A stretch of DNA of 38,383 bases, from IMG/VR virus record IMGVR_UViG_3300030294_000094, positions 1 to 38,383 of that record, one strand, 5' to 3'. The translations under genes and the position numbers were made by a program. Of the stretch, positions 2,935-26,100 are shown piece by piece (positions within the stretch are counted from its first letter, which is position 1; each line of letters starts with the position of its first letter). The notes under the pieces were generated by a model. It was given only the letters and a program-made list of their open reading frames with translations, was not told where the DNA came from and searched no databases. Source of the DNA: a virus.

Positions 2935-4566
2935 CTAGGCTACCGTTACAGTACAAAGAGCAGAGAAAGTGCCATCTGTAGTAATCGAAGAAATTACTAC
3001 TACGCCTGCAGCTATACCCGTAACAAGTCCATTAGCATTTACAGAAGCCTTAGTAGGTTGAGAACTTACATAGGTTACTGTTTTGTTTGATGCCAATTCA
3101 GGAGCAATTGTATTTGTTGCAGCAAAGTCATAAGTCGCACTAATTGCAAGAGCGTGAGTCGCAGCAGAAGTCGTGATTCCAGTAACTTTAATTGCTTTGA
3201 CAATTTTACCTTTACAGTGTGCATTCTTGTAACGAAGGCAAATAGAACTGATTTCAGTAGTAACGTTTACGTCACCATCGAAGATACCGGGAGTTTTCAA
3301 ATCTACGTCTTTAGAACCAAAAGGAACTAATACCCATTTATCAAGATATTCAGGATCAATAACAATACATTCGTTAGAACGTCCTAGTGCATCAAGCATA
3401 TCGTAAGGAGATGCAGCAGTTGTACCAAAGTTAGTTGTAATCATAGACCACTGTAAACCCCAATGTAATTCAGTGTTTTTAGCTTCCATTTGTTTCATTA
3501 CTCCCGGAATACATGAAATAGCTTCGTTAAAATCGCTACCCATTAACTGAACTTTCTGATTAGAGCCACTTTGACCTGTGAAAAGGTATTTGTGGAAACG
3601 AATTAAATCCTTATCGGTAGGATTTTCCGGGAATTCAAATTCTTTTTCAATATCCCAATAGATACCACCAGTTGTATAAACAGGATATTTCTTACCCGGA
3701 ACAATTGTTTTTCCTTTCACTCCAATTAAAGAACTACGTTCAATACCGGCACGAAGTTTGGCAACTCCAATTTCAATTTGATCGTTCAATTCCCATTTTA
3801 CTTCTTTCAAAGACATTTGAGCAATAGTAGTTTCTCCAACTTCCATTTTATAAATCTGCAAGAAGCCGATTTCTGGGGTTGGCAAGGCTGCATTGTTGTA
3901 AGAACGAATATCACCTTCACATGCTGCTGTAGACAATAAGAAAATTTCTGTTCCTGATGGAATAGTTGGAACTGTAATCTTAGAACCAACCATTTTACCA
4001 TTAATAGGGGTAACATATAGCTTAGCAGGGTTATCAGATGTTTTTCCATTCACATAGAACATAAAATCTGCATCTGTTTGAGTTAATCCGGTTACATCAT
4101 ATCCTTTTACTCCACCAACAGTTACTGTATCTGTTTCATTGAACAAGTCAGGATTAGAAACTGATAGATTAGCTGTAACAGATGTTCCACTTTCGGTATA
4201 TAATGCAGAGGTTACATCTCCAATTGGAGCAATGTCAATAGAATAATGTTTGTACTCCATACCGTGAGCGGTCATCTTACGTCCTACTTTACGTGCAATC
4301 TGGTCAATCTGATTTTTGTACGGACTGATCTTGGTAATTCGGTCATCTACATCCAATAAAATTAAATCGGGACTACCTTCTTTAATTACTTCGGTTGCTA
4401 GAACCTCTCCTGTAATATGCACACCTACGCCATCAGTACCTTCAACAGCACCCGGTACGGCAGCAGTCATGCTTGATACATCAGTAACTCCAAATAGAGC
4501 CATTGCTACGGTAAGCAATAATAGCACTACGCTTGTTTTTGTAAAAATTCCAAAGATTTTTTTCAT
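2935..4566 (-). CDS. Major capsid protein with C-terminal BIG2-like domain and hydrophobic N-terminus
   Basis: A 543-residue protein. The core (residues ~75-460) resembles SU10-type/DUF5309-like major capsid proteins, with ITKISPYKNQIDQIARKVG near the start and a central helix-rich GVMKQMEAKNTELHWGLQW region. The C-terminal ~80 residues form a BIG2-like Ig domain (SSQPTKASVNANGLVTGIAAG), likely surface-exposed decoration. Unusually, residues 1-36 look like a signal peptide: MKKIFGIFTKTS, then a Leu/Val-rich stretch 13-27, then a small-residue SSMTAAVPGA segment. Scaffold and a 112-aa protein lie upstream and a strong terminator downstream, as expected for the most abundant structural protein. 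It ends in TAG. The shell assignment is strong; the leader's role is unknown. Confidence 0.85.
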   Translation of the reverse strand: MKKIFGIFTKTSVVLLLLTVAMALFGVTDVSSMTAAVPGAVEGTDGVGVHITGEVLATEVIKEGSPDLILLDVDDRITKISPYKNQIDQIARKVGRKMTAHGMEYKHYSIDIAPIGDVTSALYTESGTSVTANLSVSNPDLFNETDTVTVGGVKGYDVTGLTQTDADFMFYVNGKTSDNPAKLYVTPINGKMVGSKITVPTIPSGTEIFLLSTAACEGDIRSYNNAALPTPEIGFLQIYKMEVGETTIAQMSLKEVKWELNDQIEIGVAKLRAGIERSSLIGVKGKTIVPGKKYPVYTTGGIYWDIEKEFEFPENPTDKDLIRFHKYLFTGQSGSNQKVQLMGSDFNEAISCIPGVMKQMEAKNTELHWGLQWSMITTNFGTTAASPYDMLDALGRSNECIVIDPEYLDKWVLVPFGSKDVDLKTPGIFDGDVNVTTEISSICLRYKNAHCKGKIVKAIKVTGITTSAATHALAISATYDFAATNTIAPELASNKTVTYVSSQPTKASVNANGLVTGIAAGVVVISSITTDGTFSALCTVTVA

Positions 4567-4939: not shown

Positions 4940-5671
4940 TTATTTTACTCCCCAGACATTTCTATCTTGATATTGTGGAGTTATTTTAGTAGAAACTGAT
5001 TTGATTGGAGGTAGACCATCTCCTTTAAATGATTTCTTTTCAGCAACTATCTTAGTGTTACGTTCCATAACTCGACCCTGCTCTTTGGAAGATTCAATAT
5101 CACTTTCGTAATTTCTGATCTTCCAAACATTGTTTAAAAGGTTTTCATTAAGGTTACCGGAAAGTAAATCGTTGATAAATTCTAAAGCAGATTCAATGAA
5201 GTCGTTAAATTCATCTTCCGACATTCCTTTGTCCTTGCTGAATTTTTCAATGACATCCTGACTATTTAATAAGTTTTGTTCGTACTCGGCTTGCATTTTT
5301 GCTGATTGCTCACCATCGGCAATGCGTTGTTTTTCAGCTTCAATAAATGCAGGATAGTTTTCATCATCCTCACCAATTTCCAAATCCCCTTTATCGTAAT
5401 ACCGATTTTGAGCAACTGCCGGGTGTGTTCCATTCATAATATCACCCAACATCAATGCTGCTTTTGGATATTTATTTAGCTTCTCATTTAATTCTTTATG
5501 CGCAGTAGAAGCCCTACCCATTTCATCCATGTGATTCAGATGCTCACCATATTGTGCTTCTTCGTCCATATCTGGATGATCCAATGCCATACGTTCCTGA
5601 AACTTTTCTTTATTGGTTTTAGGGGTAATGTTTTCATCCACTTGTTCGGGATCAATTTTAGTTTCAGCCAT
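4940..5671 (-). CDS. Putative capsid scaffolding protein
   Basis: A 243-residue, strongly acidic, almost wholly helical protein with no hydrophobic segment. It has an acidic N-terminus (MDEEAQYGEHLNHMDEMG), a long charged central helix region (IEAEKQRIADGEQSAKMQAE) and a basic C-terminus (EKKSFKGDGLPPIKS, ending NVWGVK). A positively charged C-terminus that contacts capsid subunits is typical of internal scaffolds. It is the first gene leftward of the divergent promoter region and lies two genes before the capsid gene, the classic place for a scaffold. There is no protease motif. Confidence 0.7.
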   Translation of the reverse strand: MAETKIDPEQVDENITPKTNKEKFQERMALDHPDMDEEAQYGEHLNHMDEMGRASTAHKELNEKLNKYPKAALMLGDIMNGTHPAVAQNRYYDKGDLEIGEDDENYPAFIEAEKQRIADGEQSAKMQAEYEQNLLNSQDVIEKFSKDKGMSEDEFNDFIESALEFINDLLSGNLNENLLNNVWKIRNYESDIESSKEQGRVMERNTKIVAEKKSFKGDGLPPIKSVSTKITPQYQDRNVWGVK

Positions 5672-5821: not shown

Positions 5822-6220
5822 ATGAGATTAGATGCCTGTAGAATGAATGAATTTATAGCTGATTTGAGGTCAGCTTACGATCAGACCATAAAGGATGCGG
5901 GGGAATATGCTAAGTACACAAAAAAGAAAACTCTTTTACATAGAGCAGTTAACAAACCCGCAAAGAGTTTTTACATCTCATTTGAGGAAGGAATAAGGAT
6001 TATACACCAAATTGATAGAGTAGGGGGGTCTGGCAAGGCGAACGAACTCAATGTACTGAAATACAATGATTTATATAGAGTTTATCAAAAATTAAAAGAA
6101 GAGAATCCGACAATGCCCGGTCTAGCTATTATTGAAATGGCTGTAAACTATGAAGCACCTAGGTTTTATATTCAGCCGTTGACTGCAGGTAAGATTTTAA
6201 ACCGATACATAAACCTATGA
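5822..6220 (+). CDS. Hypothetical protein, first gene of the terminase operon
   Basis: A 132-residue soluble, mostly helical, basic protein. The first half is charged (DAGEYAKYTKKKTLLHRAVN); the second includes YRVYQKLKEENPTMPGLAIIEMAVNYEAPRFYI. The C-terminal EMAVNYEAPRFYI segment recurs in small Bacteroidota phage proteins of unknown function, and I know no activity for it. It begins ~25 nt after the promoter and overlaps the rhomboid gene by 4 nt (ATGA). MNEFIADL at 5843 is an alternative start. Whether the pairing with the rhomboid is functional is unknown. Confidence 0.65.
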   Translation: MRLDACRMNEFIADLRSAYDQTIKDAGEYAKYTKKKTLLHRAVNKPAKSFYISFEEGIRIIHQIDRVGGSGKANELNVLKYNDLYRVYQKLKEENPTMPGLAIIEMAVNYEAPRFYIQPLTAGKILNRYINL

Positions 6221-6744
6221 GAACGATTAAACTTTCATTCATAACGCTTTGTCTTTGTGTATTCGTTTACACGTATTTTGGGATATTTCCTATAATGGGA
6301 TATTCTACTACTTCCCCTTTCTACACTCACATTACATTCATGTTCATTCATGCTACGATATTTCACCTTGCTATTAATCTGTTTGCATTTTACAAATTAT
6401 ACGATGCCATTGAAAAGAAGTTAGGTAGTTACGCACTATGGCTTCCGCTCGTAATTTCTTTCTTGGCATCGTTTATTTGTGAATACAAATTACCTACAGT
6501 CGGATCGAGTGGAATTGTATTCGCTATGGCGGGTATATTCTTCGCCCTTTACATACTTAAAAGAGAATCGTACATAATTAATGCAATAATATTTCCAATA
6601 GGATTTATCCTAGGATATTGTACTAATGTGAATATCGAATTGCATTTTACTTGTATGGTAATAGGATTTCTGGTCGGATTATTAATAAACAATATACAAT
6701 CGGTAAATAGAACGGTCGAAGGAGATTTGGTGCAAAAGCCATAG
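6217..6744 (+). CDS. Rhomboid-family intramembrane serine protease
   Basis: A 175-residue protein with about six hydrophobic helices, the minimal bacterial rhomboid core. The family's catalytic features are present: H45-x4-H50-x3-N54 in the second helix (oxyanion-hole His/Asn), the G96-S97-S98-G99 box with nucleophile S98, and H143 in the last helix with a helix-packing Gly at +7 (G150). Rhomboids cut single transmembrane segments of substrate proteins inside the inner membrane. The gene overlaps the 132-aa gene by 4 nt and precedes the tRNAs and terminase. Phage-encoded rhomboids are uncommon. Intact residues argue for an active enzyme; its substrate cannot be read from sequence. Confidence 0.85.
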   Translation: MRTIKLSFITLCLCVFVYTYFGIFPIMGYSTTSPFYTHITFMFIHATIFHLAINLFAFYKLYDAIEKKLGSYALWLPLVISFLASFICEYKLPTVGSSGIVFAMAGIFFALYILKRESYIINAIIFPIGFILGYCTNVNIELHFTCMVIGFLVGLLINNIQSVNRTVEGDLVQKP

Positions 6745-6805
6745 AATCGAAAGATATGTCCCGTAGATGCAATACAAATTCTTGCATGTAAAAAAGTTCT
6801 CAAAT

Positions 6806-6891
6806 GGAAGGTTACTCAAGTGATTTAAGAGGTCAGTACGCTAAACTGATAGATCGTAACAGATGCAGGGGTTTGAATCCCTTACCTTCCG
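6806..6891 (+). tRNA. tRNA-Ser (anticodon GCT)
   Basis: The acceptor stem GGAAGGT (6806-6812) pairs with ACCTTCC (6884-6890), with discriminator G at 6891. The D-stem is CTC/GAG (6815-6817, 6829-6831). The anticodon stem TCAGT/ACTGA (6833-6837, 6845-6849) encloses loop ACGCTAA, giving GCT for AGC/AGT serine codons. A long variable arm (6850-6866) fits a type II tRNA-Ser. The T-arm is AGGGG-TTTGAAT-CCCTT (6867-6883). No CCA is encoded. Position 33 is C instead of the near-universal T. Confidence 0.8.
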
Positions 6892-7017
6892 CAAAACCAA
6901 AAAGAGAAAGAGTCTTTGAAAGTAAGCATTAATTGCAATTGGTGATTATTTCCGAGAAGTATAACCGGATAGGAGACTCGCAGTAAAACAGTTTTGTATT
7001 ACTGAAAAATACAAAAT

Positions 7018-7761: not shown

Positions 7762-9726
7762 ATGACCAGAGCACAACTACTTAAAGAAAATGAACTCCGT
7801 AAAATCGAGCCTTTGTATGATCCTAAAACAGGATTAGGGGCTTATGGGGAAAGGAAGAAGGTAACTGTTTCAGAATTTGGAACTATGTACCTTCCTCTTT
7901 CATTTCTTCAAGTAGGTTGGATTAAAAAGGTTGTTGCAGCAAAGAGTATTGATGCTTATTGCCACAAGGTTGGAATGGATGATGAATATGAGAAGCTTGT
8001 AACACTGTTCATTAAAGAAAGGTTTAAACATGATCCTGAATTCTGGTTTGCTACTCAGGCAAAAATCAAAATCAAAAATCAGCGGAAAGATGGTTATCTG
8101 ATTGCTTCACCCACTCAACGAAAGGTTCTATATGAGTTGCTTGATGATTGGTATGCAGGTCGACCTGTCAGAGCGATTATTGTAAAGTGTAGACAGGCAT
8201 TTATTACTACTCTGATGGCTGCATTCAATATGTGGGTTCAGATAAACCTATTTGAAAGTTGGGATTCTCTAATCTGTGGTGATGTTGAGAACCAGGCTAC
8301 CAATGCAAGGGGTATGCAAGACAAGATTGCAACCGGCATTGATATTCTTTTTACTAATGATAAAAGACTTGAATTCACACCTTATGAAGGCTCTTCAAAA
8401 ACACGTATTTTATCAGGAAGAAGCTGTAAGGTTTCTACCGGATCAATGCAAAAGCCGGAGAATGTCCGATGTGGTGATACTTCGTCTGCCCATCTAACAG
8501 AAGTTGGACTTTGGAGAACTACTAAGGGAAAAACACCGGAAGATTTAATACAAGCTATTCGTGGTGGGATGGATGATGTTGAATATACTGTATTCACTTT
8601 AGAATCTTCCCCAAAAGGAACTGGTAACTATTTCTACAGGCAATATCAAGCTGCTAAGAAAGGTGAGTCAGATTTAAAGCCTATTTTCCTTCCGTGGTTT
8701 TTAGTTCCTCGATATTCTAAAAAGATAGATGATTACGATAAGTTTTTTGATTTATTTTTTAAAGGTGACAAGAAAGACTATTTGCAATACTTGTGGTCGT
8801 TGGGTATTACTCTTGAAAAAATAAACTGGTACATAGGAAAGCTCCTTATTATGGAACACTGGAGAGTTCAATCGGAATGGCCCAGTGATGATGTAGAAGC
8901 ATTCCAAAGCACCGGACGAAGAGTATTCAGCATGAAAGACGTTCAAAAAAGGCGCTTAGAGTGCATTAAGCCTATTTTCTTAGGTGACATTTGTGGACAG
9001 GAACAAAAAGGAGAAGATGCACTTAAAAATATCAGGTTAGAACTTATTAATTCATTCCTTAAGATTTGGGCTTACCCGGATTATGAAGAGGTTGTAACAG
9101 ACAGATATTTAGTAATTGTTGATATTGGAAAAGGGAAGAGTGCTAAAGCAGATTATTCAGATATACTTGTTTTAGATCGGTACGGATTAATGTACGGAGA
9201 TAGATTGGAAGTGGTAGCAGAATGGCACGGAAGAATAGACATTGACTTATTGGCATGGAAGGCTGCACAAATAGGAACCTATTACAGAAGCAAGGAAGTA
9301 GCATTATTGGCAATTGAAAAGAATACCATTGATACGATCACTGAATATGCAAATGTTTTGTTTTCTGAACTTGGTGATTGGTATGAGAATCTATATGCTA
9401 AGGTTGAAGTAGATAAAATCACAAACATAACTACTAAGACATTAGGTTTTCACACAAACACAAATACAAAACCTTTAGTTGTTGAAGCGCAACAAGCTGC
9501 TGTAAGGGATGATTTGTACTATGAGCGTAACGATGATGCTTGTGTGGAAATGGACACCTACGAACTAAAAGAAGATGGCAAATTCGGGGCTGCCGATGGC
9601 TGTCATGATGATATGGTTATGGTTCGGGCTATAGGGATGCATATTAGTAAAAAAATGGATATTCCAAAGGTAATAGTTAAGCATGAAACAATCAAAAAAA
9701 AGGTAGTAGGACTATCAAGCATGTAA
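7762..9726 (+). CDS. terL: Terminase large subunit (ATPase and nuclease)
   Basis: A 654-residue DNA-packaging motor. The ATPase half has an atypical Walker A region KCRQAFITT (142-150; families usually show KxRQxGxST), Walker B HLTEVGLW (244-251) and the coupling motif ESSPKGTGN (281-289). The RNase-H-like nuclease half has the first acidic residue in VIVDIGKG (D454) with ADYSDILVLDR following, a second in AIEKN (E519), and the terminal HDD (615-617). It binds the portal during packaging and cuts concatemers. It shares an operon with tRNAs and a DUF559 nuclease and runs opposite to portal and capsid. Its stop overlaps the next start by one base. Confidence 0.93.
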   Translation: MTRAQLLKENELRKIEPLYDPKTGLGAYGERKKVTVSEFGTMYLPLSFLQVGWIKKVVAAKSIDAYCHKVGMDDEYEKLVTLFIKERFKHDPEFWFATQAKIKIKNQRKDGYLIASPTQRKVLYELLDDWYAGRPVRAIIVKCRQAFITTLMAAFNMWVQINLFESWDSLICGDVENQATNARGMQDKIATGIDILFTNDKRLEFTPYEGSSKTRILSGRSCKVSTGSMQKPENVRCGDTSSAHLTEVGLWRTTKGKTPEDLIQAIRGGMDDVEYTVFTLESSPKGTGNYFYRQYQAAKKGESDLKPIFLPWFLVPRYSKKIDDYDKFFDLFFKGDKKDYLQYLWSLGITLEKINWYIGKLLIMEHWRVQSEWPSDDVEAFQSTGRRVFSMKDVQKRRLECIKPIFLGDICGQEQKGEDALKNIRLELINSFLKIWAYPDYEEVVTDRYLVIVDIGKGKSAKADYSDILVLDRYGLMYGDRLEVVAEWHGRIDIDLLAWKAAQIGTYYRSKEVALLAIEKNTIDTITEYANVLFSELGDWYENLYAKVEVDKITNITTKTLGFHTNTNTKPLVVEAQQAAVRDDLYYERNDDACVEMDTYELKEDGKFGAADGCHDDMVMVRAIGMHISKKMDIPKVIVKHETIKKKVVGLSSM

Positions 9727-10162: not shown

Positions 10163-10399
10163 ATGGAAAATGAAGTATTTTATCTGAATGCCGAAATGGC
10201 AAGAAAAATTACAGAGGCTAATTTAATGAGTCCTATTGAAGTATTGAAAACTATCGAAGGGGGTGCAAAGTATAGATCAGAAGTTATTTTAGACAGGGGA
10301 ATAAGCATGGAAACGCTGAATGAAATAATTGGATATGGGTTTTCTATTACTAAGGTAAAAGATTTGATGGGACTTGAATGTGTAAAAGTTTCTTGGTAA
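10163..10399 (+). CDS. Hypothetical small protein
   Basis: A 78-residue helical, near-neutral protein beginning MENEVFYLNAEMARKITEA, with a central EVLKTIEGGAKYRSEVIL segment and the C-terminus DLMGLECVKVSW. The start is 9 nt after the previous stop; the stop overlaps the nuclease ATG by one base. No family recognised. Confidence 0.55.
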   Translation: MENEVFYLNAEMARKITEANLMSPIEVLKTIEGGAKYRSEVILDRGISMETLNEIIGYGFSITKVKDLMGLECVKVSW

Positions 10400-10839
10400 T
10401 GTCAAATCTTACGAAAGAAATAATATCCTGTGTCCGGGAGCATAAAGAGAATGCTACTCCTGCCGAACTTCTGATGATGCAGAAGTTACGATTCAGGAAT
10501 ATTCGTTTTGATTTCAATTATCCGGTACTGACTGAAAAGTCTTTCTTTACTGCTGATTTCTATTTACCCAAATATGGTTTAATCATTGAATTGGATGGTG
10601 GTATTCATTCAACGGAAGAGAACCAAAAGAAGGACGTAATAAAAGATGTAGTGTATGAAAGTTTAGGGTATAACGTCCTTCGTATGTGGAACAGCGAAGT
10701 AGACACTTTCGACACGCTAAAGGTAAAAGAGTACAGGCGTGGAAGAATAAGGCTTTACGAAGCCCCTATTAAAACCCCCAATTACAAAAAGCTAAGAGGT
10801 AAACAACGAAGTAAAATAATTAAATCAAAAAGATCATGA
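10399..10839 (+). CDS. DUF559 / Vsr-like (PD-(D/E)XK) endonuclease
   Basis: A 146-residue protein from ATG 10399, which overlaps the upstream stop (TAATG); an in-frame ATG at 10378 would overlap that gene by 22 nt. Family features are an N-terminal LRFRNIRFDFNYPV segment, the acidic residue in FTADFYLPKYGLIIELDGGIH, and VLRMWNSEV, the usual DUF559 order of aDfy, iELDG-x-H and vlR-w-n. The fold is the very-short-patch-repair nuclease type. The C-terminus is very basic (RGKQRSKIIKSKRS), fitting DNA binding. Many phages place an HNH nuclease beside terL to help packaging; this enzyme may fill that role or process DNA elsewhere. Confidence 0.8.
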   Translation: MSNLTKEIISCVREHKENATPAELLMMQKLRFRNIRFDFNYPVLTEKSFFTADFYLPKYGLIIELDGGIHSTEENQKKDVIKDVVYESLGYNVLRMWNSEVDTFDTLKVKEYRRGRIRLYEAPIKTPNYKKLRGKQRSKIIKSKRS

Positions 10840-11296: not shown

Positions 11297-11719
11297 ATGA
11301 GTAAAACTAATTTCAGCTGTACCAATGACACAGGGGCAGAGAGTCACGATGGAATTTCATGTTGCGAACCGGGTAAAGATCGAGAAGGCTACAAAGTAGT
11401 CTACGAAGACAATTATATTTCATGGAGTCCGAAAGATGTATTTGAAAAAGCGTACAAAGAAATCAGGACTATTGATGATTTAAAAGATAAAAGTATTCTT
11501 TTAGAAGGTTATGACTCTCTTGTTCCACATCAAAAAAGGGTTATTGATGAACTGTCAGAATTGAATGGTAAAATCGAAAAACTTGATAAGTTTATAATGG
11601 AAAATCCAATCTACAAAATTCTGATTGAAGAAGAACAAAATATTCTTGTGCTACAAGTTCGAAGTATGCAAAACTACTTTGGTATTCTTATTGATAGAGT
11701 GAATAATTGGAACCTTTAA
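11297..11719 (+). CDS. crAss001_48-related phage protein (C-terminal helical domain)
   Basis: A 140-residue protein. The first ~70 residues are polar and specific to this gene. The rest has the pattern HQKRVIDELSELNGKIEKL, then ENPIYKILIEEEQNILVLQ, then RSMQNYFGILIDRV. This is the helical family seen in crAss001 gp48-related and many other small phage proteins (HQqRVvdEkaELdeKi, then EEq, then Q-x-M-x-Y-x-x-L-x-x-R). The family has no established activity. It is the last gene of the rightward operon, 12 nt before a strong terminator. The ATG at 11283 gives only a 5-codon frame, so 11297 is the start. Confidence 0.7.
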   Translation: MSKTNFSCTNDTGAESHDGISCCEPGKDREGYKVVYEDNYISWSPKDVFEKAYKEIRTIDDLKDKSILLEGYDSLVPHQKRVIDELSELNGKIEKLDKFIMENPIYKILIEEEQNILVLQVRSMQNYFGILIDRVNNWNL

Positions 11720-12159: not shown

Positions 12160-14139
12160 TTATGCTGCCATTTGTGGCTGAGTAGCCTGATTTATCATTG
12201 CAGATGCGCTCGGGTCTTGTCCATCTGCAATTTGTTGTTGAATTTCAGGAGGAACTTCTGTTGTTACCTGTCCAGTCTGTTGTAACTCTTTTTCCTGTGC
12301 ATCCAATATTTCAAGAAGTTTGTCTCCGAATGGGAATTCCCCAACCTTAAGCACTTCTTTTATTCCAATAGCCTGTGCTTTGAAAAAGTCTAAAAGTAAC
12401 CCATTATTTACAGTTCTGAATGCCGGTGTACTTGCACTCTCACTAATAGCCAAATCAAATTGAACGTCTCTGATTTTTTCAGGATTCCACCATTTGCTTT
12501 CTTCATTGTAAGAAGTCCCGGTAACATTCATATAACGTTCCGTTGTCCAATACTGCTGTATTGTCTGCATTAGAATAATATCCCTGTCTTCTCTGAAACT
12601 TTTAAACGTTTCCATCAAGTCCAAAAGGTTCACGCTTGATTGTTGGCTCTGTTGAGCGTATAGGGCAGCCGGAGCGTTAGCATTAGCTTCTTTCCCTTGT
12701 AATGCTCCATATACACCCGAAACGTCCTTCATGGAACTCATATAAAGGTTTAGTAGTTCATAAGCTCCTACATTGGTTGCGTTTTGACTGACGGTATATG
12801 GAAGTTGCTCTTTTGTAAGTCCTTTTGTTTTAATTACGACAACTCCACCGGGCGTTTGATACTGTTCTATTATTTCTTCTTTATTCATTTCCCCCAGACA
12901 CTCCTGTGGAATAATAAATGTTCCTTTTGGTGATGCGCTAATGATAAAGTCAATAAGAGTAGATAAACGATTAATACCTCTGTTCAGCTCTATAAGATCA
13001 TCTACGAATGAATGGTTTTCACCATCAAACATATCTATCTTTATAATGTAAGGCGGTTTTTTATGGTTGAAAGGAGTTTCGGCTTCATATAAAATTTCCC
13101 CTAGTGGAGTCATATATCTGACGTACCAAAACTTATCTAAAAACCATTCGTATTCAATTAGCGCAACATCTTCTGGAAGTACACCTTGTGCTACAGCTTC
13201 TTTAATACGAGTTTTGTTTATCTCGTCAATTGCGGGTGCATCTTCTAATTCAGAAATGTAAGGTTTGCCAGTTAAGTAATCATGAACTTTTAATCGTTCT
13301 TTACTTTCAAATTCCCACGCACATATAACTCTACATTTGGAGCGATCAGTAGGAAGGAAGAAAGAAAGGTTTTCAATTTTTCTTTTAGATAGTGGCTGAT
13401 ATGCTGAATATATGTCGTTTTGATTATTTGAATTATTGTACATTTTTGATACTCGCAATGCCTTTTCTCTATCTCCAGAACAAAGATTAGAAATGATGTC
13501 AGATAAACTCCAATCAAGAATTTCTCCCATTACGGTAAAATCTCCACCTCGTGGGTCTTCTATATCTCCATTGAAGAAAAATCGTGGTAAGGTTACAAAA
13601 TCAACCTTTTCAGACATTATTTGACGGCTGAAATCCCATGAGTACCCAACCTTTTGAATAGCTACACCAGAATGAAGGTATTCTTGTAATGTACGTGCGT
13701 CTAGTTCCCAAAGTTTATTTGATTGATACGAACACTGAACTGCAATAGACATCATTTCGCCTAGTTTTGCTTCGTCTCGATCCCTAGCAACACATCCTGG
13801 TTCGGTCTGGTTACTTCTGAATTGGCCAATAACAGTTTTTACCTGTCCACGGATAAGGTTATTTGCAATTGGAACCTTGCCTTGATTCATGATATGTTGA
13901 CCTTCCGTTACTCTATGTCCAGTTTCATCAATTATGACATCAGAATATTGATCCCCAAAACCATAGGCAACGGCTCTTTGTCTTTTCTTTCGTGCCGGCG
14001 CAAGATCGTTCCATAATCTTGAATACCGGAAGATGCGAGCAACATTATCTGATTGTTCTAATGTATCAAACTTTAAAGGCTCTACCTTTCTTTTCTCTGT
14101 AAGGGTATTCAGATTAAATTTTCTATAGTCTGTTTTCAT
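12160..14139 (-). CDS. Portal protein (P22-like)
   Basis: A 659-residue protein, within the usual range for podoviral P22-type portals. The N-terminal region has RLWNDLAPARKKRQRAVAYG and QGKVPIANNLIRGQVKTVIG, the typical opening in which the packaging tunnel scaffold is described. The central VRYMTPLGEILYEAETPF and NRGINRLSTLIDFIIS segments match the wing/stem region. The C-terminus is Gln/Ala-rich (QQQIADGQDPSASAM), like the portal barrel tail. It forms the 12-subunit head vertex that docks terminase and adaptor. Its start overlaps the giant gene's stop by 4 nt (ATGA). It lies on the opposite strand from terL and away from the capsid gene. Confidence 0.9.
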   Translation of the reverse strand: MKTDYRKFNLNTLTEKRKVEPLKFDTLEQSDNVARIFRYSRLWNDLAPARKKRQRAVAYGFGDQYSDVIIDETGHRVTEGQHIMNQGKVPIANNLIRGQVKTVIGQFRSNQTEPGCVARDRDEAKLGEMMSIAVQCSYQSNKLWELDARTLQEYLHSGVAIQKVGYSWDFSRQIMSEKVDFVTLPRFFFNGDIEDPRGGDFTVMGEILDWSLSDIISNLCSGDREKALRVSKMYNNSNNQNDIYSAYQPLSKRKIENLSFFLPTDRSKCRVICAWEFESKERLKVHDYLTGKPYISELEDAPAIDEINKTRIKEAVAQGVLPEDVALIEYEWFLDKFWYVRYMTPLGEILYEAETPFNHKKPPYIIKIDMFDGENHSFVDDLIELNRGINRLSTLIDFIISASPKGTFIIPQECLGEMNKEEIIEQYQTPGGVVVIKTKGLTKEQLPYTVSQNATNVGAYELLNLYMSSMKDVSGVYGALQGKEANANAPAALYAQQSQQSSVNLLDLMETFKSFREDRDIILMQTIQQYWTTERYMNVTGTSYNEESKWWNPEKIRDVQFDLAISESASTPAFRTVNNGLLLDFFKAQAIGIKEVLKVGEFPFGDKLLEILDAQEKELQQTGQVTTEVPPEIQQQIADGQDPSASAMINQATQPQMAA

Positions 14140-17100
14140 AGGTCTCTTATTAATTCAATTATCTGTTTTTCGTTTTCTTCTTTGTTAGCAGGGTTCTTCT
14201 CTGTATCTTTCTTTAAAAAGTCAATTGTAGAATTCAGGGATTTAAGTTTGCCATAGCTTACAAATATCTTTGAGCTTAATTCTTCTAATTGTGCATTCTC
14301 TTTCACTTCTCCTAAAACTCGTTTAGCTTTGTATTCTTGTACTTTCTTTAATAGACCGTTATATTTAGCTTCAAGTTCAGAATAAGTAGTAGATGTAATA
14401 GTCTTTCCATCTGCTAAGTCTACAATATTTTGTTTTAATCCAGAAATGATTTTTTCGCTTTCTACTTGTTGACTTTGTTTTTGTTCAGGGAGTGCCTTTT
14501 CAAGTTCTTTGATTGTTTTTTGCAATCCACCAACTTCATAGTTTTCATCTGTTTGAAGAGATGCTATTTGATCTTGATAATACTTCTTCTTTTGATCGTA
14601 GTCAGGTTGATTCTTATCTAGCTCCTTGATCGCTTTTTCATTTCTACCAATTAGTTTATCAACCTTTTCTGATTTGTCTTTTGCCTCATAATACTTTTCA
14701 TTCAGCCCGGTGTTACGTGATTGAATGTCTGCAGTATTTTTTATTAATGCTCTAGGGGTAATTTCTTTGATAAATGAACCTTCTTTTTCGCTTAATGCTC
14801 CTTCTACTAAAGAAAGAGGTTGTTCGTAAATCCCGGCAAGATAACCACCCAATAAATGATCTACTATGTCAGGGTTTGGACTTAACCAACCTGCTTTTGC
14901 TCCATCTCCACCTGTAACATTATCTAAAGCCTTTGCAAATCTTACAAGTATTTCAGGTGCGTATGGTTCCCCTTTCTTATTTGTTTTGATCTTAGTGAAC
15001 CCCGGTGCATCTTCGTCTTGATTTTCTTTGTAAATTGAATATCCTAACCATGATTTATTTGCAAGTAATTCTGCTGACGTAGAAACGATATCCGGCATTG
15101 CACTAGCCCAACTCCCCTGCATTGATGATTCTATAGGATTGTAAGGTAATTGAGAGGTCAATCCTTTGAGCATATTTACTGCTGTTTCGGTTACTGAGAC
15201 TTTCCCATGATACATCATCATCATATCCATTCCTAATCCGTGATACATTCTGAACTCTTGTCCTAAAGGAATATCAATTAATTTATCCGGTGTCCAGATA
15301 GTAAAGTTTGCGTTCCGGGCAAAAGAAGATCGTTTCGCAAAATCTTCTAACCATTTATCTTGATCCCAACCAAATAATGAAGCTAATGCAGAATTCAACA
15401 TACTTACTAATAAAGCCCCACTTATTACGTTAGCTGCAATAGCAAGCAAAGCACGTCTTTTTGTTTGGTTATTTTTTGTTGATTTTGAATAAATGTTATC
15501 AATTGCCTGAAAACCTACATTAATAAAGGCGTAAGTACTTTTCAATTCTCTTAGTCCGTTTCTTCCGTTTCCTTTTCTATCAAAGTTTACGGTTGCTTCT
15601 TTTGCCATTGAAGTAGCTTTAAGGGAAGAGTAACCTTTATCAATTGCCGAGATATAAACTGCTAATCTCATTTGATTTTCAGTAACATCACTTATAGCAT
15701 GGTAAATATCAAATATTTTTTTGACCGGGTGAATTCCGTCTTTTAGTTGCTTTTCTATTTCCGTTTGGATTTGTTTGATTTCCATTATTTTGGAAATACC
15801 TGTTTTACCACCCAAAACCATGAAGTCATTAAGCATTTTATCATATCTATTACTAAGATCATGTTTCCCTAGCATTCTTCTTAATAAAGAAGCTTGTGCA
15901 TGTCTGAAATTAGCTATAACACTTGCTGTAAAAGCTGCCCCTTCGTCAATGAATGCAAGGTTTAAACCCGCATGTATGTCTCGAAGTGGATTAGTAACAA
16001 GAATAAAAGCAGGTCTCCAAAGAGTTTTAAATCCTGCCATATGTCTGGTGATACTTCCTATCCCATCTAAGGTAGCTCCAAACGCACCGTCATAATGTCT
16101 CATATTAGTTCCGTTTATAGCTTGTGGAACTCGTGGAGAGGTATGGAAGCGTATTGTGTACGATTCTCCATTACTTTTTAAAACTACTTCGTGTTCTCTC
16201 TCATTTGTAGGCTTGATCCATAATCCTAAATGTAGTCTTTCCCCTCCACTTTGGTATGCTTCTCCTTTTTCTTGAAGAGCTTTCATTTTAGCTTGAAACA
16301 GAACTAAATTGGCGTTGTATGTTTCGTTGGTGTCAGTATCTTCAAAGGGAACTTCATCGGCTATTTTAAAAATAGGTTTACCTTCTTCATCTTCTCCTAC
16401 TTTTACGAACCATGTTTTACTAACTGTCATTGATCCGGTAGTATCTTTCAAGGCTAATCTTCGAACGGATTGTAAGAGTATATTTTCTTCTGCTGCTCCG
16501 ATTGCGCTACGCACGGTTGATTCCATTACTGAGAATGGGTCATCTGATTCCGATGTACGTCCTTTACCTTTTTTTACAGCGCTGAAAAAGAAATCCCCAT
16601 GTTCCATTGAATAGTCCCATGTAGTTTCAGCGGTTGGGTCACGGTGTCCTTTAAATGGAATATAGTAATCAAACATCCCTTTTATAGCTTCGGCTGATTC
16701 TTTCGTGCGCATTCCACCTCTGACCTCTTCATTTAGGGCATAGTGAGAAACTTCGGCTGCTTCTTTCCAAAAGTCATTTACTAATGATCCGTTTGCTTTT
16801 TCAAAATCAGAAATAAATGCGTATGCGGTTTCATCTATACGTTTTTCAATAGCCTTTCTTCCTGAATAGTCAATATCATTTTTTTCCATGAAGTCATAAA
16901 CATTAGATTTAAAATTGGAAATTTTTTGATCTAATATAGAGTTCTTGGTAATAAAGTCAGTTGATCCGGTTACATCATCAATCTTAGCTCTTTCAGCTTC
17001 TAACTTTGCAGAATAATTTCTAACAAGAATATGCGCTGTGTATTCTGGACCATGTTTTAGTTTTGCGTAGGTAGTTATATCATCGTAAGTGAACCCATTC

Positions 17101-20100
17101 TTTTGTATTGCTTTTAAAGTATCTATGAAAGGCTTCATTACCTCAGATTTAAACAAGTCAAAACGATGTTCAATTCTACTTGGAACAGTAGTGAGTCTCA
17201 TTACATAATTATCATTATCAGAAATAACCACTCCTTTACTTTCAAGGAATTCTTGAAATTTCTTTACCGGTAATGCTGAATTAGCCCAACCTTCCCAAAG
17301 CTTAGAAGATATAGTATTCACAGAACGGTTTAGTTCATCTAATGAAATGCCGGATAACTCTTCTCCATTTTCTTCGGCAACATTTTGTAACTGACTTTTT
17401 TGCCATTCCTGTGTTGCTTCGTAATGCTCTCTATTTTTTTTCAACTTATCAAGTACAGAGTCAGTATCAAGTATTTTGACAGGTTCAGGTTTAGAAACTC
17501 TCTTATAACTTGGGGTTTCATCTCCTTCGTCAAGGTCTTGTTGTATTGCTTGACTAATATCTAATACTTCAACATCTTCACTAGCTTCTTTTGCTTCAAT
17601 TTCAGCTAGTTCATCAGTCATTTTTATTTCTAATTCAGCGTATTTCTTTTCTGATTTTTCAAGTTCAGCTTGTTTTGGAAATTCTTTTCCGATTTGGGGT
17701 GTATAAAGTTCGTTTTCACGAATAGCTTTTTCTACACCAACCTTACGAAGACTTATATTTCTATCAAAACGGCTTAAGGAAAGAACTTCTTCCAGATCAG
17801 CAAGCATATTTTGAACTCTTGCGCCTACATCCTCTTTATTGATAATAGGTAGTTCAGGGAATTCATAAGATACCATTCTTTCAATACGAGTCTTAGATAG
17901 GTCTTTTGTTTTATCCAAAGAACTTTTAGACATCCACCCTTTTTCAATTTCAATATTTACATTGAAAGATTTTCCGTTTACCTGCATTGATGTTTTCAAT
18001 TTAGTAATGTCAGAATTAGGGTTGTTTCTTAATGCTTCTGCTGCTTTCTCGACTTGTTTGGATATTGTCTTATTTATCAGTTTATCAATTTCATCCGGTG
18101 TAGTGGCTGTAGCGTTCCCTATTGTTACAGATACGATTTTACCATCAGGGAATAGTTGTTTTATTTTAGCTTTTGAATCTTCTAACTCATTGATAGTGTT
18201 AGTAGTAGCTTTAATTACGTTTTTATTTCTTTTGATTTCAGAAGCCATGTAAATTTGGTTTCCCTCATGATATTGTTTAGCATTTAGAAGTTTCTTTAGT
18301 TTTGTTTCTTCCAAACGCATTGCCATTGCCGACTCGCTGCCAGATAATGAAGCCATCATTTGAGCAAAATTATTTGAGTCGCTACCTTCAATATCTTCTT
18401 CCTCTAATGGTTCACGACTTGTAATATCACCTTCCATTATCTGCTTGATGAATTTACCTTTAATGTTCAATCGTTGATACCCGGTAACATCAAGTGTCCC
18501 CTTAACTCCGATACGAAGTAATTTAATAGTTTTACCCCAATCAAGGTGCAAATTACCTTGTCTCATAATACGTCCGTTCCGTTGTTGATAGTCACTTGGT
18601 CGTGTTGGTGCATCCATGTGTACAAGAAGATGTAAACGTTCCTGTATATTTACTCCAACTCCTAGCTTCTCAGTTGTTCCCAGAACTACACGTACAATTC
18701 CCTTATTTACTTTTTCCCAAAGTGCTGCCTTTTTATCATCTGTACTATAATCGTTTACTATTGCAACTTGGTTTTCAGGAACTCCCGCTTTAATAAGTTT
18801 CTCCTTAATATCTTCAAATACATTGAACCTCTTTTCACCGTCTTTCTTGTCGGTGCTTTGATAAGCATCACAGAATATAGCTACAGTTCCATTGTATTCT
18901 TTAGTATTATCTAAATCTTTCAGAACTTCCTTTACTGTAATATTTGTTTTACTATTTGGATCATCAGGGAACTTAGGATCAACCAACCTTACATCTACTG
19001 CAGCACGTTTAGCAACTCCAAACATAACAAGGGGAATGTGTTTGTTATCCCTTTTTTCTGCACCTGACATACTCTCAAATCTAGTAAGAGTAGCTTTGAT
19101 AGATTTCATTACCGATTTAAGAGGTTGTGTTTGATCTATCATCATGTCGATAGGTGCGCCAGACTCAATACGTGGTGTTCCTACGCCTTCTTTTAGGTTA
19201 GACACTTGTTCGGTAAGGACAGTGTGTGTAACCTGTTTCCATGCAGACAGTAATTCAGGAACATTGACAAAACTTGAAAAACGTTTTGTTATCTTGAATT
19301 TTCCACTGGCTGAGAACTCTGCTGCTTCTTCGATGTTTCCAAAGTTATTCACAAATGCATCGAAGTTATTCATATTCAAACGTTGCAACTCTGTTTTAGG
19401 AAGTAGGTAACGTAAGAATGTCCACATTTCAGCCATTGTATTTGAAATGGGAGTTCCGGTAGCAAACACCACGTTTTTTCCGTTGTGTTGTTCGAGGATA
19501 TAAGAGGTTTTGAGCTTTAAAGATTGAGCTTTTTGAGAAGCACCAACATCAATACCCTTTATACTTTGAAGCGAGGTGACGAAACCTAACTTTTTATAGC
19601 TATGAGCTTCATCAATTAATAGTGCATCAATACCCAATTGTTCAAAGGTTCTTGTGTTGTCAGTCCTACGATCCATCAGTTTTTCTGCCTTAGAAGTAGC
19701 CTTCTTTCTATTGGATTCAATTTGCTTAATGCTTAGTCCTTTCTTTTTACTAGGGATATCTGATTCCTCTTTGTCGTACTTAGAATCTTCCAGAGTTTTG
19801 ATTTGTTTCTCTGCCGTACTGATAAGCCTTTTTGAACTTTCTTCTCCGTTAGCCTTCAACTCTTCAATTAAATCTAGCTTTTCTTGAATTTTCTCGTCAA
19901 TGTATTGCAATACTCGTCCTCTATCATCAGGAATGCCATCGAGGTAACTATGATACAAAACCACAATATCCAAATCATTATAGGCTATTTTAGCAAATAA
20001 TTGTTGTCTTTGGGCTGCTGACAGATCATTAGAGGAAGGTACAAGTACCTTAGCTCTTGGATAAAGGTCTTTTATCTCTTTTATGAACTGTTTGTAAGTT

Positions 20101-23100
20101 GCACGTTGAACTACGATACAAGGCTTCTTAGCTAGCCCTAGTCTACGCATTTCCATTGCAGTAGAAATAAGGGTAATTGTTTTACCGGTTCCTACTTCAT
20201 GGGCTAATAGAGTAGCAGTTTCCAATGATCTCAAAGTCCCCTCTTTTTGATGGTTCATTGGTATTTTTGCACCGTCATTGGCTTCTCTTGAAAATGCTTT
20301 CGCTTCTCCTTCTTCTTTGAATGTATAAATCGAACCTGTTTTGTCTGCCTGACCATTATATTTATCAAGTTGGCCATTCAATTTGCCAATTTCTTTTGGG
20401 GACAAATCAGCTATATTGCGAACTCTATAACCGTCATCTACTTTTTCGGGATTAGAGAACTTTCCTCTAGCTCCAACAAAAATATCAAACCCGGTTGCAT
20501 TAGTTTTCTTTTCAACTACTGAGCGGAAGATGTTGTTGTAAATGTTTTCCATTTCTTCAACATCCGTATTATTTCCACTTCTAACCCATGACAAAAAGTT
20601 CTCTTCCAGATCGGATTGTTTGTTTTGGGCCATAGAAGTACCGACAACATCTTTTACTTTATGTCTGTCTCTTCCATAACCTACCAATTCAGTAACTACA
20701 GTTGGAGTATTATTCATTGCGTTTAAGGCAATTTTACTACCTGATATTACCCCTACAATACCTGCCTGTTGATCTTTGGCATTATCTTTCCCCTTCATTT
20801 CACCGAAATACTTATCGGTAGAAGTTTTCTTTAATCCTGCCTGAACATCAAATGTTTCTGCGAAGAACTTATTGTAAACTTTATCAGGAACCCATGTGCT
20901 ACCTAGTGATACTTCAATATGAAGTATTGGTAAGTCCAAAGGAACTACTTTGCTCAATTCTTCAATGTTCTTATCGTAAATACCACCTATATTATCTTGC
21001 TTTGCAACTTCTAATTTATTGCGGACGTTGCCCGACAAGTAATTATCGGAAGATTCCACAAGTCCGGTAGAAGGATTTACAAATCCAATAAGATTATCTA
21101 GGATTTCTTTTTTGATTGAATCTTCACTACGATCTAGCAATTCAGAAATGTAACCCAGATTTACGATACCATATTTGTATGAACTTAGTCTTACACCATC
21201 GGCTACATTATCGGCTTTCATTTCAATCTGCTTGTCGATGACTCTCTTACTAAACATATCAGATTTTGTTATCTCAAATGTTTTAGTTTTTGAATCAGGG
21301 TTACTCACATCGGTTATGTTTTCAATAGCAGAAGTTCCCGGAAAGTCTACATCATCACGAAGGAATGATATTTTTTGATTATTAGATAAGTGTCCATAGC
21401 TATTTACAAAGCCGTCATAGACCTTATTTAAATTGGTGCGTAGTTCTTCAATGTTGCTTGCATCGTTGCTCTCAGCTTCTAGCAAATCAGATACAGCGGT
21501 CTTTATTCCTGAATAGTCAGTTACTACTTGTGCTTTTGATTTGCCGGCAACCTTATTATCATTCCAACTTACCGGAATGGCTTCACCGTATTGAATAAAG
21601 TGTGGTACCCCGTCGATAACAGTCAAACCACCTTCTTTTGTTCCGTTATTTTCTACGGCTGTACGTTCTTTTGCACTCGTTTTGGCTGCATAAATATCAC
21701 TAGGAAGATTATCTATGAAGTCAGAAATTACATCAGCTTGTTTTAGCCCGACAATCGGTGCGTTACGTTGTTCTGTTTGTCTGATAGCGTTACCACCTTC
21801 AAAGCCGAACTTCATTTCCCCTGCCATATTTTGTGGGAAGTCAGTAAAATACTTGTTGATACGCATTGTAGCTATTTTATCAGCTAATTCATCGACATAG
21901 TTGTAATTTTCATCACGAACCCGATTTCCTGTTTTTTCTTGGTAAGGGGTTTCACGTTGAATTACTACGTCCTGAACATTTTTAGCGTAATCAGACATCC
22001 CGCTTTCATCTCTTTTACGAATGATAATAACATCAGCTGTAGCTTCTGTACCTGCACTTCCTTTGAAAGTATCAGTATTAAGGCGTAGAACATCAATAAA
22101 ATCAGCATTACCTTCATTTATTACCCAATTACGCAACGCTGTACTACGATCCATTGTAGAAGATGTAGTAATGAATACGCCTATACCACCCGGTTTAAGT
22201 TTGCGTACGCTTTTTGAAATAAAATAATTGTGTATATCAAATTTGCTTGAAAGGTCTTTATCGTTTTTGTCGTGTACTTTGAATGATCCAAAGGGAACAT
22301 TTGAAACAACCAGGTCAAGACTATTATTTGCGATCCGTTGTTCCTCAAATCCTGCAATGTTTACATTTGCATCAGGATAAAGAGCCTTTAGGATTAAACC
22401 GGATATGTTATCCAGTTCAACAGCTTTCAATGTGGTTGAATTACGAAGAGCTTCCGGCATAAGTCCAAAGAAGTGACCTATCCCTGCGGATGGTTCTAAT
22501 ACCTCACCACCTTTAAAGCCTAGTTTGGTAATCATATCCCAAACTGCTGAAACTTCTGCGGTAGGAGTATAGAAGGATGTATTTGTAGAGGCTCTGGCTG
22601 AATCGTATTCCTCTGTTGTAAGGGCTGACTTTAAAGTATTGAAGCGTGGGTTACTTTCTTTGAATATATCTGCTAATCCACCCCAACCTGTGTACTTAAC
22701 AAGTACTTCCATTTGTTCGGGCGTAGCAATTTCGCCACTTTCATTTAGCTTTTTGGCTAGTTTGATAGCTGCGATATTGGCGGTAATCTTTGACACGTCA
22801 CCTCTTGGTGCTACATCTATACCTTTTTTAATAATAAAGTTCCGGGAATTCCTTACTTCGCTATGTCCCGAAGTTTGTTCAGGATTGCTTGCATTTCCTT
22901 TTCTCTTATCGGTTTCTGGTTTGATTCCATTGCCGGGCTGAACGGTGCTAACATTTGGTTCATCAGTTCCCTTGCTCCCGATTCGTTCGCTCCCTTGCTG
23001 ATCGCTAGTTTTTCCCAATTCAGGGCTTCCGATATTTTCTCCTCTACCAGTGCTATCAGGTCGTTCGGTTTTTCCTCTGCCCACTTCCGAAGTAGGTTTG

Positions 23101-26100
23101 GTGAGTTCTCGGCTGCCATCCATAGGGATGTTTCTGCCCAATCCGTTTGTATCGCTCTCATTTTTACTAGGTGTTTTATCGTTTTCAGAATCAAATAAAG
23201 ATGTTTGTGTTGGTACGTCTTTACTTTTACCCTTTTTAGATTCGGTCTTACGTGAAATATATTCTTTGTGATCGAACTTATCAATATCGAATTTTGCTAC
23301 TTCATTGGGGGTTGACATCTTCTCAACGCCTTCCATTCCGGGAGCATATCGTGTAAGTTCGTAAAATTGTTTTAGGTATGGCTTTACTTCTTCTCCAATA
23401 CCTTCAATCATTTGTGCAGCATAATCAGAGAACTTTAAATCCCCTTCATCGAATATCATTTCGGAGAGGTCTAAGGCTATCTGATTTAGTTCTGGATCAA
23501 TCGACTCACGTTTGTAATTAGGCTTTAAATACTCACCACCAGTAAGCGTATTAAGCGAAGAATTTCTTTTGAAATCAACCTTATTTTTGTTGATACGGGC
23601 TTTTGCTGCTGCAAATAAGGCTTCTTTCTTTTCCTTTTTTACTTGATCTTCTCTTTTTGATCCAACTTGATTTTGTTCAACAGGGCTAATTTCTGCTGTA
23701 CGTCCATCTTCGACACGTCCATCTTTTGATATTCCGCTAGTACTTCCGGTGCTACTGACAGATTGAAACTCATTCCCGGCTGCGATAGGTTTAATATTGC
23801 CATTAGTTATTTTGTTTAATGATTCTAATACTGGTTTTTGTAATAATTCAGGAACTAAAGACATATCAATGTCTCCATTAAGTAAATCTTGAATAGTTTT
23901 TCCTTTCAACAAATTGTCAGTCTGCCATGCAATAGCTTCTGTTATCTGACTAAATTCGCTTTCATTTGCATAGTCAATAGGAACAAACTCTTCATATCCT
24001 TTGATACTTAGTATTTGTTTCTTAGTATTTGTTTCTTCAATTGCAATGTGTATCTGTTCATGTAACCATGAGTTTACCAGATCGTCCGTTGTTTCTTGCG
24101 CTTGTGAGTCGATAAGAATTGTATCTCCAATTCTAACGGAATGTAATGTTTCTCCATCGTTGGCGTATTGTAACGCTTCTTGGTAGTATTTATCGGAAAC
24201 AAGTTCTTTCAAAGAAGATAGTAACGATTCTTGTCCGTTTACTACAGTTGCTTTATGGGTAATGCCATTATCAACTTCAAGTTTATTGATTAAATCTACT
24301 GCCGATTTATGTTTCTCAATAGAAATTTCAGATACAGGTGAAGGAGTCTCTTTATAATCAGCAAAAGGTTTGGCTTGTTTTGCGCCATCGTAAAGCCATG
24401 TTTTAAAATCTTCAACAGATACTTCGGTCATGTCAGACAAACCGTTCCAATCCTTATCGTAGCTATCCATGTAGGCATTCTCTGCTTCTTTAGCAGTATC
24501 GTAACCTAACATTACTTTAGATTCGTCAAATAAACCTGCCTTATCACCAGTAGTATGTACTTGGTCAATTACAAATACTTTTGTACTGTTCTCGTCTGGC
24601 CCAATAAAACAATCAACATGATCTCCGTCTCTTCCGATTGTACCTTTGAAGTAGCCGTAATGGGATTTCATTACATTTTCCCATGTTTTCCCATTTGAAT
24701 CAACGCCAGACCGGATAGAACCTTTCGGATTTTCTACAGAAATGTCCATACCTTGAATATTGATATGAGCTTTCTTATAGTTCCCGGCTTCTTTTTGTCC
24801 TTCGGTAGGGTTTAGATTAGGTTCTTGATCTGCTATTTGTATATCAATGGATTGTTGAAGATCAGAAACTGGAACATCTTCAATCGTTTCTCCGTTTCCT
24901 TCTAAATCAACTGTTTTACCATCTTTGGTTATTCCGTTTACAGTGTATTCTTTACCTTGATAGGAAACAGTAGAGCCGTTTTTTACTTCTGGGCTAGTTT
25001 GTCCTTCATTTCCTTGAACAATTCCGCTTTCCTCATTGATTGAAGGGCTATCTTCCGTGCCTGAATCCTTTGATCCGGTGTTAGTGTTATCGGTTGTGGT
25101 TTCATAATCATTTGTTATTTGCTCTCCCCAACTTGTAATAAATTGGTTCAAAGTATCTATTTGTTCGTTTGTAAAGGTACTAATTCCTAAGAAACTAGCA
25201 AGTATATCATCATTTATTTGATCTAATATCGTTGTTTCTATTTCTGTCTCAGGAAAATTGATATATGCTTTGAAATCTTCCGGTGTCATTCCGAATGTTT
25301 CCTCACCGATATTACGCCTTCCTTCCGCTTTATTTAAAGCATCAGCATTTGATTTAGTTGAACGTAGAACCTCATTTGTAATATCAAGTATTTCACCGTC
25401 AGACATATTTGATACTCCCGGTATTTCTCCATTGTTTCCATTGCTACCATAGTCATTATAGATAGAATGAGCAAACTCAGTAGGAGTAAGTCCGTTTTTT
25501 TCGTCAATATAGTTTCTTCTTTGAAGTCTTTCCTTGTTGGAGTTTCTAAATTCAGTTGATAGCCCATCTTTCCACTTAAATTTTTGTCCACCGGCAATAG
25601 CCTGATGAATATAATCTTCCATGTCCAAATATCCACCTAAGTCTACAATTCTTTTCTTGAAACCTGTAAGTTCGGCAGTAGTTTGTTTTACTTCTGGATT
25701 GTCCAACTCTTCTTGTACTTGCAGTGCCTGTTCTTTTTTCAGTTGAGCTATTTCAGGACGAAGATTTACTTCTTTTGGTGTTTCAATGGTTTCCGGAACT
25801 TCTACTTTAGGTAAAAGAGATTGAAGGTCATTCAATTTTGTATTTAAAGAATTAAGTTCTTCATTCAATGAAATGCCTTTGGCTTCTTGCTTAGACTCAA
25901 TAGCTGCTTCCTCTTGCATTGTTTTAGCTTTGCTGAGCAGTTTATTAGTTTCTTCTGTAAGTTTGCCTATAGTTCTTGTATTGACTTGAATTTGGCTTTG
26001 TAAACGCTTTACTTGTCTACCGATTAAACTGTTTGCAGCTTCCTCGCCTTTAATTTCTTTAGTATGATCGTATATTTGTTGATCGGTCATATTGTTATAG

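Follow-up and report, generated by a model that had tools for sequence, protein, structure and literature searches.

A rhomboid protease gene in the head-gene cluster of Bacteroidales phages and the anchored major capsid protein as its candidate substrate

What use would a tailed phage have for an intramembrane protease? The question is raised by a 38.4-kb virus record, IMGVR_UViG_3300030294_000094, whose whole length of 38,383 nt (hereafter the window) carries a rhomboid gene among genes for the phage head (Table 1). The presence of a portal (P22_portal), a major capsid protein (MCP; SU10_MCP) and a terminase identifies the window as tailed-phage DNA; a podovirus is hinted at by a T7 gp14-like match slightly below the Pfam cut-off. 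Judged by terminase, it is closest to a locus from a Paludibacter assembly (66% identity), so that a Bacteroidales host is likely. Rhomboid genes have been noted in phages before: Stenotrophomonas phage DLP3 encodes a rhomboid-family membrane protein, gp93, of 175 aa, near PIG-L, WcaG and WecE and listed among membrane-modification and metabolic genes, and the rhomboid of phage DLP5 was counted as a moron gene (PMC5834331, PMC7326821); no link to the capsid was described for either. The papers that we searched contain no description of a substrate or role for a phage rhomboid, or of a membrane protease that matures an anchored capsid protein, and phages and viruses are both absent from a review of the rhomboid superfamily published in 2025.

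Table 1. Positions of the rhomboid gene, its neighbours and the proposed substrate in the window
Feature	Position	Strand	Remarks
Major capsid protein (MCP), SU10_MCP fold	2935..4566	-	PF17236, E=3.6e-22; proposed substrate
MCP residues 30-37 (VSSMTAAV)	4456..4479	-	aligned with V-x-M-A of relatives; non-canonical
MCP residues 12-28, N-terminal hydrophobic anchor (SVVLLLLTVAMALFGVT)	4483..4533	-	
Soluble protein upstream of MCP	4940..5671	-	phrog_22323, E=1.7e-17; scaffold-like by position
Small soluble protein S, 132 aa	5822..6220	+	phrog_27246; shares 4 bases with R at its 3' end
Rhomboid intramembrane serine protease (R), 175 aa, ATG start	6217..6744	+	PF01694; GlpG fold; invariant core
Codons H50 to N54, oxyanion residues	6364..6378	+	GlpG H150/N154 by alignment
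Codon S98, catalytic serine in GSSG	6508..6510	+	GlpG S201 by alignment
Codon H143, catalytic histidine	6643..6645	+	GlpG H254 by alignment
Terminase large subunit, TerL	7762..9726	+	PHROG terminase matches

By sequence and by fold, the phage protein is an unremarkable member of an established family. The window rhomboid matches Pfam PF01694 (Rhomboid) at E=1e-11 and 45.7 bits (curated cut-off 22.6), 41 of 44 relatives match it at E<=0.01, and a profile built from the phage relatives, searched against the PDB, retrieves GlpG (E=1.2e-14), with H50, N54, S98 and H143 aligned to the catalytic and oxyanion residues. An AlphaFold model built from the phage relatives (pLDDT 89.2, pTM 0.85) contains six long helices and the L1 helix, and it superimposes on GlpG both in Foldseek (2o7l; E=2e-5, probability 1.00) and in VIA-align (2nr9; Z 18.1, rmsd 2.8 over 169 residues). 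The likeness to the GlpG-type rhomboids (S54; GlpG of E. coli and H. influenzae) extends to the six-helix core, the GxSG serine, the histidine of the last helix and the HxxxN oxyanion pair; unlike GlpG, the phage rhomboid has no cytoplasmic domain, lies in a head-gene cluster and is proposed to have a single viral substrate. The window protein scores 36.6 bits against the GlpG equivalog TIGR04239 (cut-off 250) and 19.4 bits against the rhombosortase model TIGR03902 (cut-off 84), and falls outside both. PHROG offers no name for it and gives weak matches in 4 of 45 relatives. A scan of viral contigs with the single sequence confirmed no close relatives, and the relatives used here were obtained instead through alignment and TerL routes.

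Conservation among these relatives is concentrated in the catalytic core. In 51 non-redundant relatives with a mean identity of 27%, exactly six columns reach at least 97%, namely H45, H50, N54, G96, S98 and H143, and each is in fact invariant (51/51); the addition of 39 further non-redundant relatives left all six residues in place in 90/90. Close pairs of rhomboid genes mostly have dN/dS values of 0.07–0.19, indicating purifying selection, so the gene is maintained and its product is, judged from its residues, predicted to be catalytically competent. The preliminary description of this locus had placed a six-helix rhomboid here with the same four catalytic and oxyanion residues and had named loss of the serine or histidine in relatives as the point to survey; the Pfam match, the GlpG alignment, the predicted structure and the lack of any loss among the 90 relatives all bear it out.

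How widespread such genes are depends on where one looks. The expectation that rhomboids are rare in phages agrees with the seven matching records that tblastn with the window rhomboid found in the phage collection, but it does not hold in the phage's own lineage. There, 160 TerL relatives were drawn from viral contigs and bacterial genomes, blind to the presence of a rhomboid; together with further loci they made up 170, which reduced to 120 non-redundant ones (51 rhomboid-positive, 61 rhomboid-negative and 8 uninformative). A rhomboid thus occupies the slot in 51 of 112 informative non-redundant terminase loci. One rhomboid-negative call (L058) is due to an assembly gap within a rhomboid, and that locus was excluded from the association tests. 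The order S – rhomboid – TerL is fixed across Bacteroidales phages and prophages, while about half of the lineage has no rhomboid; in many of these rhomboid-negative loci, and usually where S is recognisable, S directly precedes or overlaps TerL. This order and the 4-base overlap confirm that the rhomboid is coupled to a small soluble protein in front of the terminase gene, as had been read from the window. Rhomboid-positive and rhomboid-negative loci are mixed on the TerL tree, with 14 changes against 37 in shuffles, and the largest rhomboid-negative records contain no rhomboid elsewhere.

The same cassette, with the gene for a DUF5309-type MCP diverging from it, is found in three sequenced Bacteroides phages, BKO1-TP3 (PQ571269), BS-TP4 (PQ571277) and BF1-TP2 (PQ571263), whose rhomboids are about 26–30% identical to that of the window and whose TerL proteins are 34–39% identical to its TerL (tblastn); no function has been proposed for these rhomboids, whose annotations vary between rhomboid and glycoside hydrolase. 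In PQ571269 the rhomboid (15001-15519) is labelled "glycoside hydrolase" and TerL (15512-17626) "tail spike protein", a label that TerL also bears in PQ571277 and PQ571263. In the window, the rhomboid is separated from TerL by a tRNA-Thr and an ORF of 212 aa; right after the rhomboid, at 6804-6892 (+), a possible class II tRNA-like sequence (GGAAGGT...ACCTTCCGCA) was spotted by eye, for which neither ARAGORN nor Rfam returned a call. Downstream of TerL are genes for a DUF559 nuclease-like protein (10378-10839, +) and a crAss001_48-related protein (11297-11719, +), and 14136-28658 (-) encodes a polyvalent protein of 4840 aa, in which inorganic pyrophosphatase, SNF2-type helicase, Eco57I methylase and LPD38 domains are combined.

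The partner gene S is itself a well-defined family, phrog_27246 being matched by 55 of 55 aligned relatives. Its model is confident (pLDDT 93.7) and has no significant fold match in the PDB or BFVD, so that an assignment as terminase small subunit would rest on its position; against Pfam, the relatives give weak single-member matches only, to Terminase_7 and Terminase_4. One motif seemingly occurs twice in S and its relatives (as KPAKSFYIS and YEAPRFYIQ), in both cases with a helix after it, and in one locus (L148, 5536-8061) S and TerL share a single 841-aa ORF, possibly a fusion.

That the rhomboid may cleave a phage product is one of the two roles proposed in the preliminary description, and a substrate was looked for among the proteins that accompany it. 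A gene-by-gene comparison of 15 rhomboid-positive with 8 rhomboid-negative genomes revealed, besides the rhomboid, only one family with a membrane-type segment conserved in all of the rhomboid-positive genomes compared, and this is the MCP. Other proteins that track the rhomboid were considered as substrates and set aside, the best candidates among them having no membrane segment; the family of the soluble protein upstream of the MCP is present in all 23 genomes. The segment is a hydrophobic anchor at the N-terminus, which in the window MCP has a mean Kyte-Doolittle hydropathy of 2.22 over residues 13-31. At its C-terminus the same protein carries a bacterial Ig-like Big_2 domain (PF02368, E=1.8e-10).

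Across the 79 non-redundant loci with an MCP in reach, an N-terminal anchor is found in 43/43 rhomboid-positive and 6/36 rhomboid-negative loci (Fisher p=3.5e-16). On the TerL tree, all eight independent pairs in which both characters differ agree in direction (p=0.0078), and in two further pairs the rhomboid differs while the anchor is unchanged. Because the threshold for an anchor (hydropathy 1.5 over 19 residues) had been chosen after the first genomes were inspected, it was held fixed for a second sample of 65 new non-redundant loci, drawn by patterns in the MCP core and not by the N-terminus. Here 36/37 rhomboid-positive and 0/28 rhomboid-negative loci have the anchor, in sequence that is new but phylogenetically not independent of the first sample. 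The one exception, L366, combines an intact rhomboid and an unanchored MCP with a rearranged terminase region.

The six rhomboid-negative loci with an anchored MCP fall into two kinds. Four (L010, L053, L127 and L143) form one clade, in which the hydrophobic MCP N-terminus is longer and V-x-M-A (see below) is lacking; the other two, L024 and L147, retain a similar motif despite having no rhomboid in the slot. A second rhomboid elsewhere was considered as an explanation, and none was found in the phage records; two of the four such loci that lie in bacterial assemblies (L147 and L127) have a clear rhomboid elsewhere in the assembly, which is probably the host's own. Compared with the MCP core, the anchor changes at a higher rate and is nevertheless constrained, as expected for a presequence that is removed.

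What would a protease recognise at this anchor? In the 43 anchored MCPs of rhomboid-positive loci, a Gibbs sampler placed the motif [S/G/T]-G-V-x-M-A-[A/E/D]-A-[T/S] at the anchor's end, with V in 34/43 (elsewhere mostly another hydrophobic residue) and A in 41/43. The pattern V-x-[MLFV]-A follows the anchor in 33/43 proteins from the first sample and 35/36 from the second (68/79 overall), against a background of 1.7% of 30-residue windows in MCP cores. Rhomboid specificity has been described as a large hydrophobic residue at P4, a small one at P1 and a hydrophobic one at P2' (PMC2941825), the cleavage site of Gurken is RKVRMA (PMC12615303), and a VRMA aldehyde has been co-crystallised with GlpG (PMC5746060). 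All three positions agree with a cut placed after V-x-M-A; the rhomboid rule in its loose form is no evidence, because nearly any sequence meets it. In BKO1-TP3 such a cut would fall at SSGVMMA/DASNLPDAG, and one by signal peptidase I two residues further on. The window MCP has a clear anchor and, at the aligned site, V-S-S-M-T-A-A-V in place of the canonical V-x-M-A; its two nearest relatives likewise have an irregular site, and the general case, as applied to the window phage, rests on its relatives. The methionine of V-x-M-A was also considered as an internal start codon that would leave the anchor untranslated, which is disfavoured because some phages have L, F, V, Y or another residue in its place and because the segment is open and constrained.

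From these patterns we infer that the anchor would enter the membrane and be cut there by the rhomboid, as well as where and to what end it would be cut, and we consider it probable, though well short of certain, that the rhomboid cleaves the MCP precursor of its own phage and so frees the MCP for head assembly. The MCP would be synthesised with its N-terminal hydrophobic anchor and inserted in the inner membrane; the rhomboid would be inserted like GlpG, with its positive loops inside and its active-site loops outside, and would cut where the anchor ends (after V-x-M-A in most relatives); and the released MCP would enter head assembly, the rhomboid taking the role that a soluble prohead protease has in other phages. 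The leading candidate among the phage's products is the MCP, whose anchor the rhomboid tracks. We lean, if only slightly, towards the broader reading that release of a membrane-anchored MCP by a dedicated rhomboid makes head assembly depend on the inner membrane, where it may even start.

Topology poses a difficulty for this model. Loop charges favour the model in that they predict for the rhomboid the same orientation as GlpG, its active site facing out, and put the MCP motif on that side. The charges flanking the anchor (mean +2.9 on the N side, positive in 43/43, and -2.5 on the C side) predict that the body of the MCP is translocated to the periplasm. A periplasmic MCP body does not fit with cytoplasmic head assembly: either translocation of the folded MCP does not take place and the segment is otherwise placed in the membrane, or the model is incomplete. 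Known rhomboid substrates are, in addition, mostly oriented opposite to the charge-predicted anchor of the MCP.

The same topology invites the alternative that host signal peptidase I removes the MCP N-terminus as an ordinary signal peptide and that the rhomboid acts later, for instance by clearing the signal peptide or dealing with MCP stuck in the translocon. The anchor does look like a Sec signal peptide, with a basic N-terminus, a hydrophobic core and an A-x-A sequence (MADAS, MANAS, MAAAS); the motif also resembles a signal peptidase I site, and the charges predict an N-in topology. Yet alanine is kept more strictly at the putative rhomboid P1 (41/43) than at the signal-peptidase -1 position (31/43, elsewhere G, S, P, T, D or V), the hydrophobic P4 (V in 34/43) is conserved although signal peptidase I does not need it, and a cut by that enzyme would not require a rhomboid, whose presence closely tracks the anchor; we regard this account as unlikely. 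Still less probable, by a clear step, is that the rhomboid processes another phage protein that co-varies with MCP type, such as an unrecognised virion or lysis membrane protein: a 117-aa family adjoining TerL does occur in 11/15 rhomboid-positive and 1/8 rhomboid-negative genomes, but it lacks a membrane segment, and no further conserved membrane protein tracks the rhomboid. That the protein is a pseudoprotease serving the MCP as a rhomboid-like chaperone, in the manner of the inactive relatives iRhom and Derlin that share its fold, is scarcely credible when the serine, the histidine and both oxyanion residues are invariant among relatives otherwise about 27% identical.

A different kind of objection is that the rhomboid cuts a host membrane protein, whether for receptor removal, superinfection exclusion, lysis or defence evasion, and that its association with the anchor reflects shared descent or block exchange. 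The rhomboid and MCP genes lie within about 3 kb of each other, and on the MCP-core tree rhomboid status follows a few deep lineages; the anchor was lost only about three times on that tree (in a 28-locus clade, in L019 and in L052, the last on a long, uncertain branch), which leaves the pair test powerless there, and the MCP-core and S trees offered too few supported changes for independent pairs. Nor do rhomboid distances within rhomboid-positive phages follow the MCP more closely than TerL (correlations of 0.56 and 0.60, respectively), so the argument from distances was dropped. The DLP5 and DLP3 rhomboid membrane proteins, moreover, have been called moron-type genes (PMC5834331, PMC7326821). 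Hitchhiking of neighbouring genes could partly account for the association. Two loci, however, break the head-module block and argue against simple linkage. In L135, both slot neighbours, S (74%) and TerL (76%), are closest to a rhomboid-positive phage, while the MCP is unanchored and of the rhomboid-negative type (72% versus 48%) and the rhomboid is missing; since S sits between the MCP and the rhomboid, a single block transfer cannot explain this arrangement. L019 has lost both anchor and rhomboid although its MCP core shares 85% identity with that of a rhomboid-positive phage, and there is no displaced hydrophobic segment in the other reading frames. A fixed slot in a head-gene cluster would also be unusual for a host-directed accessory gene. 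We judge a host target improbable, and the clipping of a host receptor or superinfection exclusion, as suggested in the preliminary description, finds no support here.

Cleavage of the MCP by the rhomboid would have a precedent in kind. The substrate of rhombosortase (GlyGly-CTERM) was inferred from a near-perfect co-occurrence of the enzyme with the membrane-anchored sequence, the two often being adjacent in the genome (PMC3237569), and 29 of 44 phage rhomboids give sub-threshold matches to the rhombosortase model TIGR03902; the target of rhombosortase is a C-terminal anchor on secreted proteins, in contrast to the N-terminal anchor on a capsid protein proposed here. With prohead proteases the phage rhomboid shares its genome position, being a head-cluster gene between S and TerL and beside a diverging MCP gene, and the proposed removal of an N-terminal segment from the MCP, for which the case here comes from co-occurrence and the motif. 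The prohead proteases of tailed phages are soluble and active inside the prohead, whereas the phage rhomboid, as an integral membrane protease, would do its work at the membrane.

If true, the proposal would be the first to assign a phage rhomboid a substrate and a role, and the two proteins would form a natural pair of one protease and one substrate. Head maturation would then have an unexpected route, by way of a membrane protease that acts on a membrane-anchored capsid protein, and one would have to ask how an MCP whose N-terminus is signal-like is retained in the cytoplasm. Why some phages carry a rhomboid would become a question open to a short experiment.
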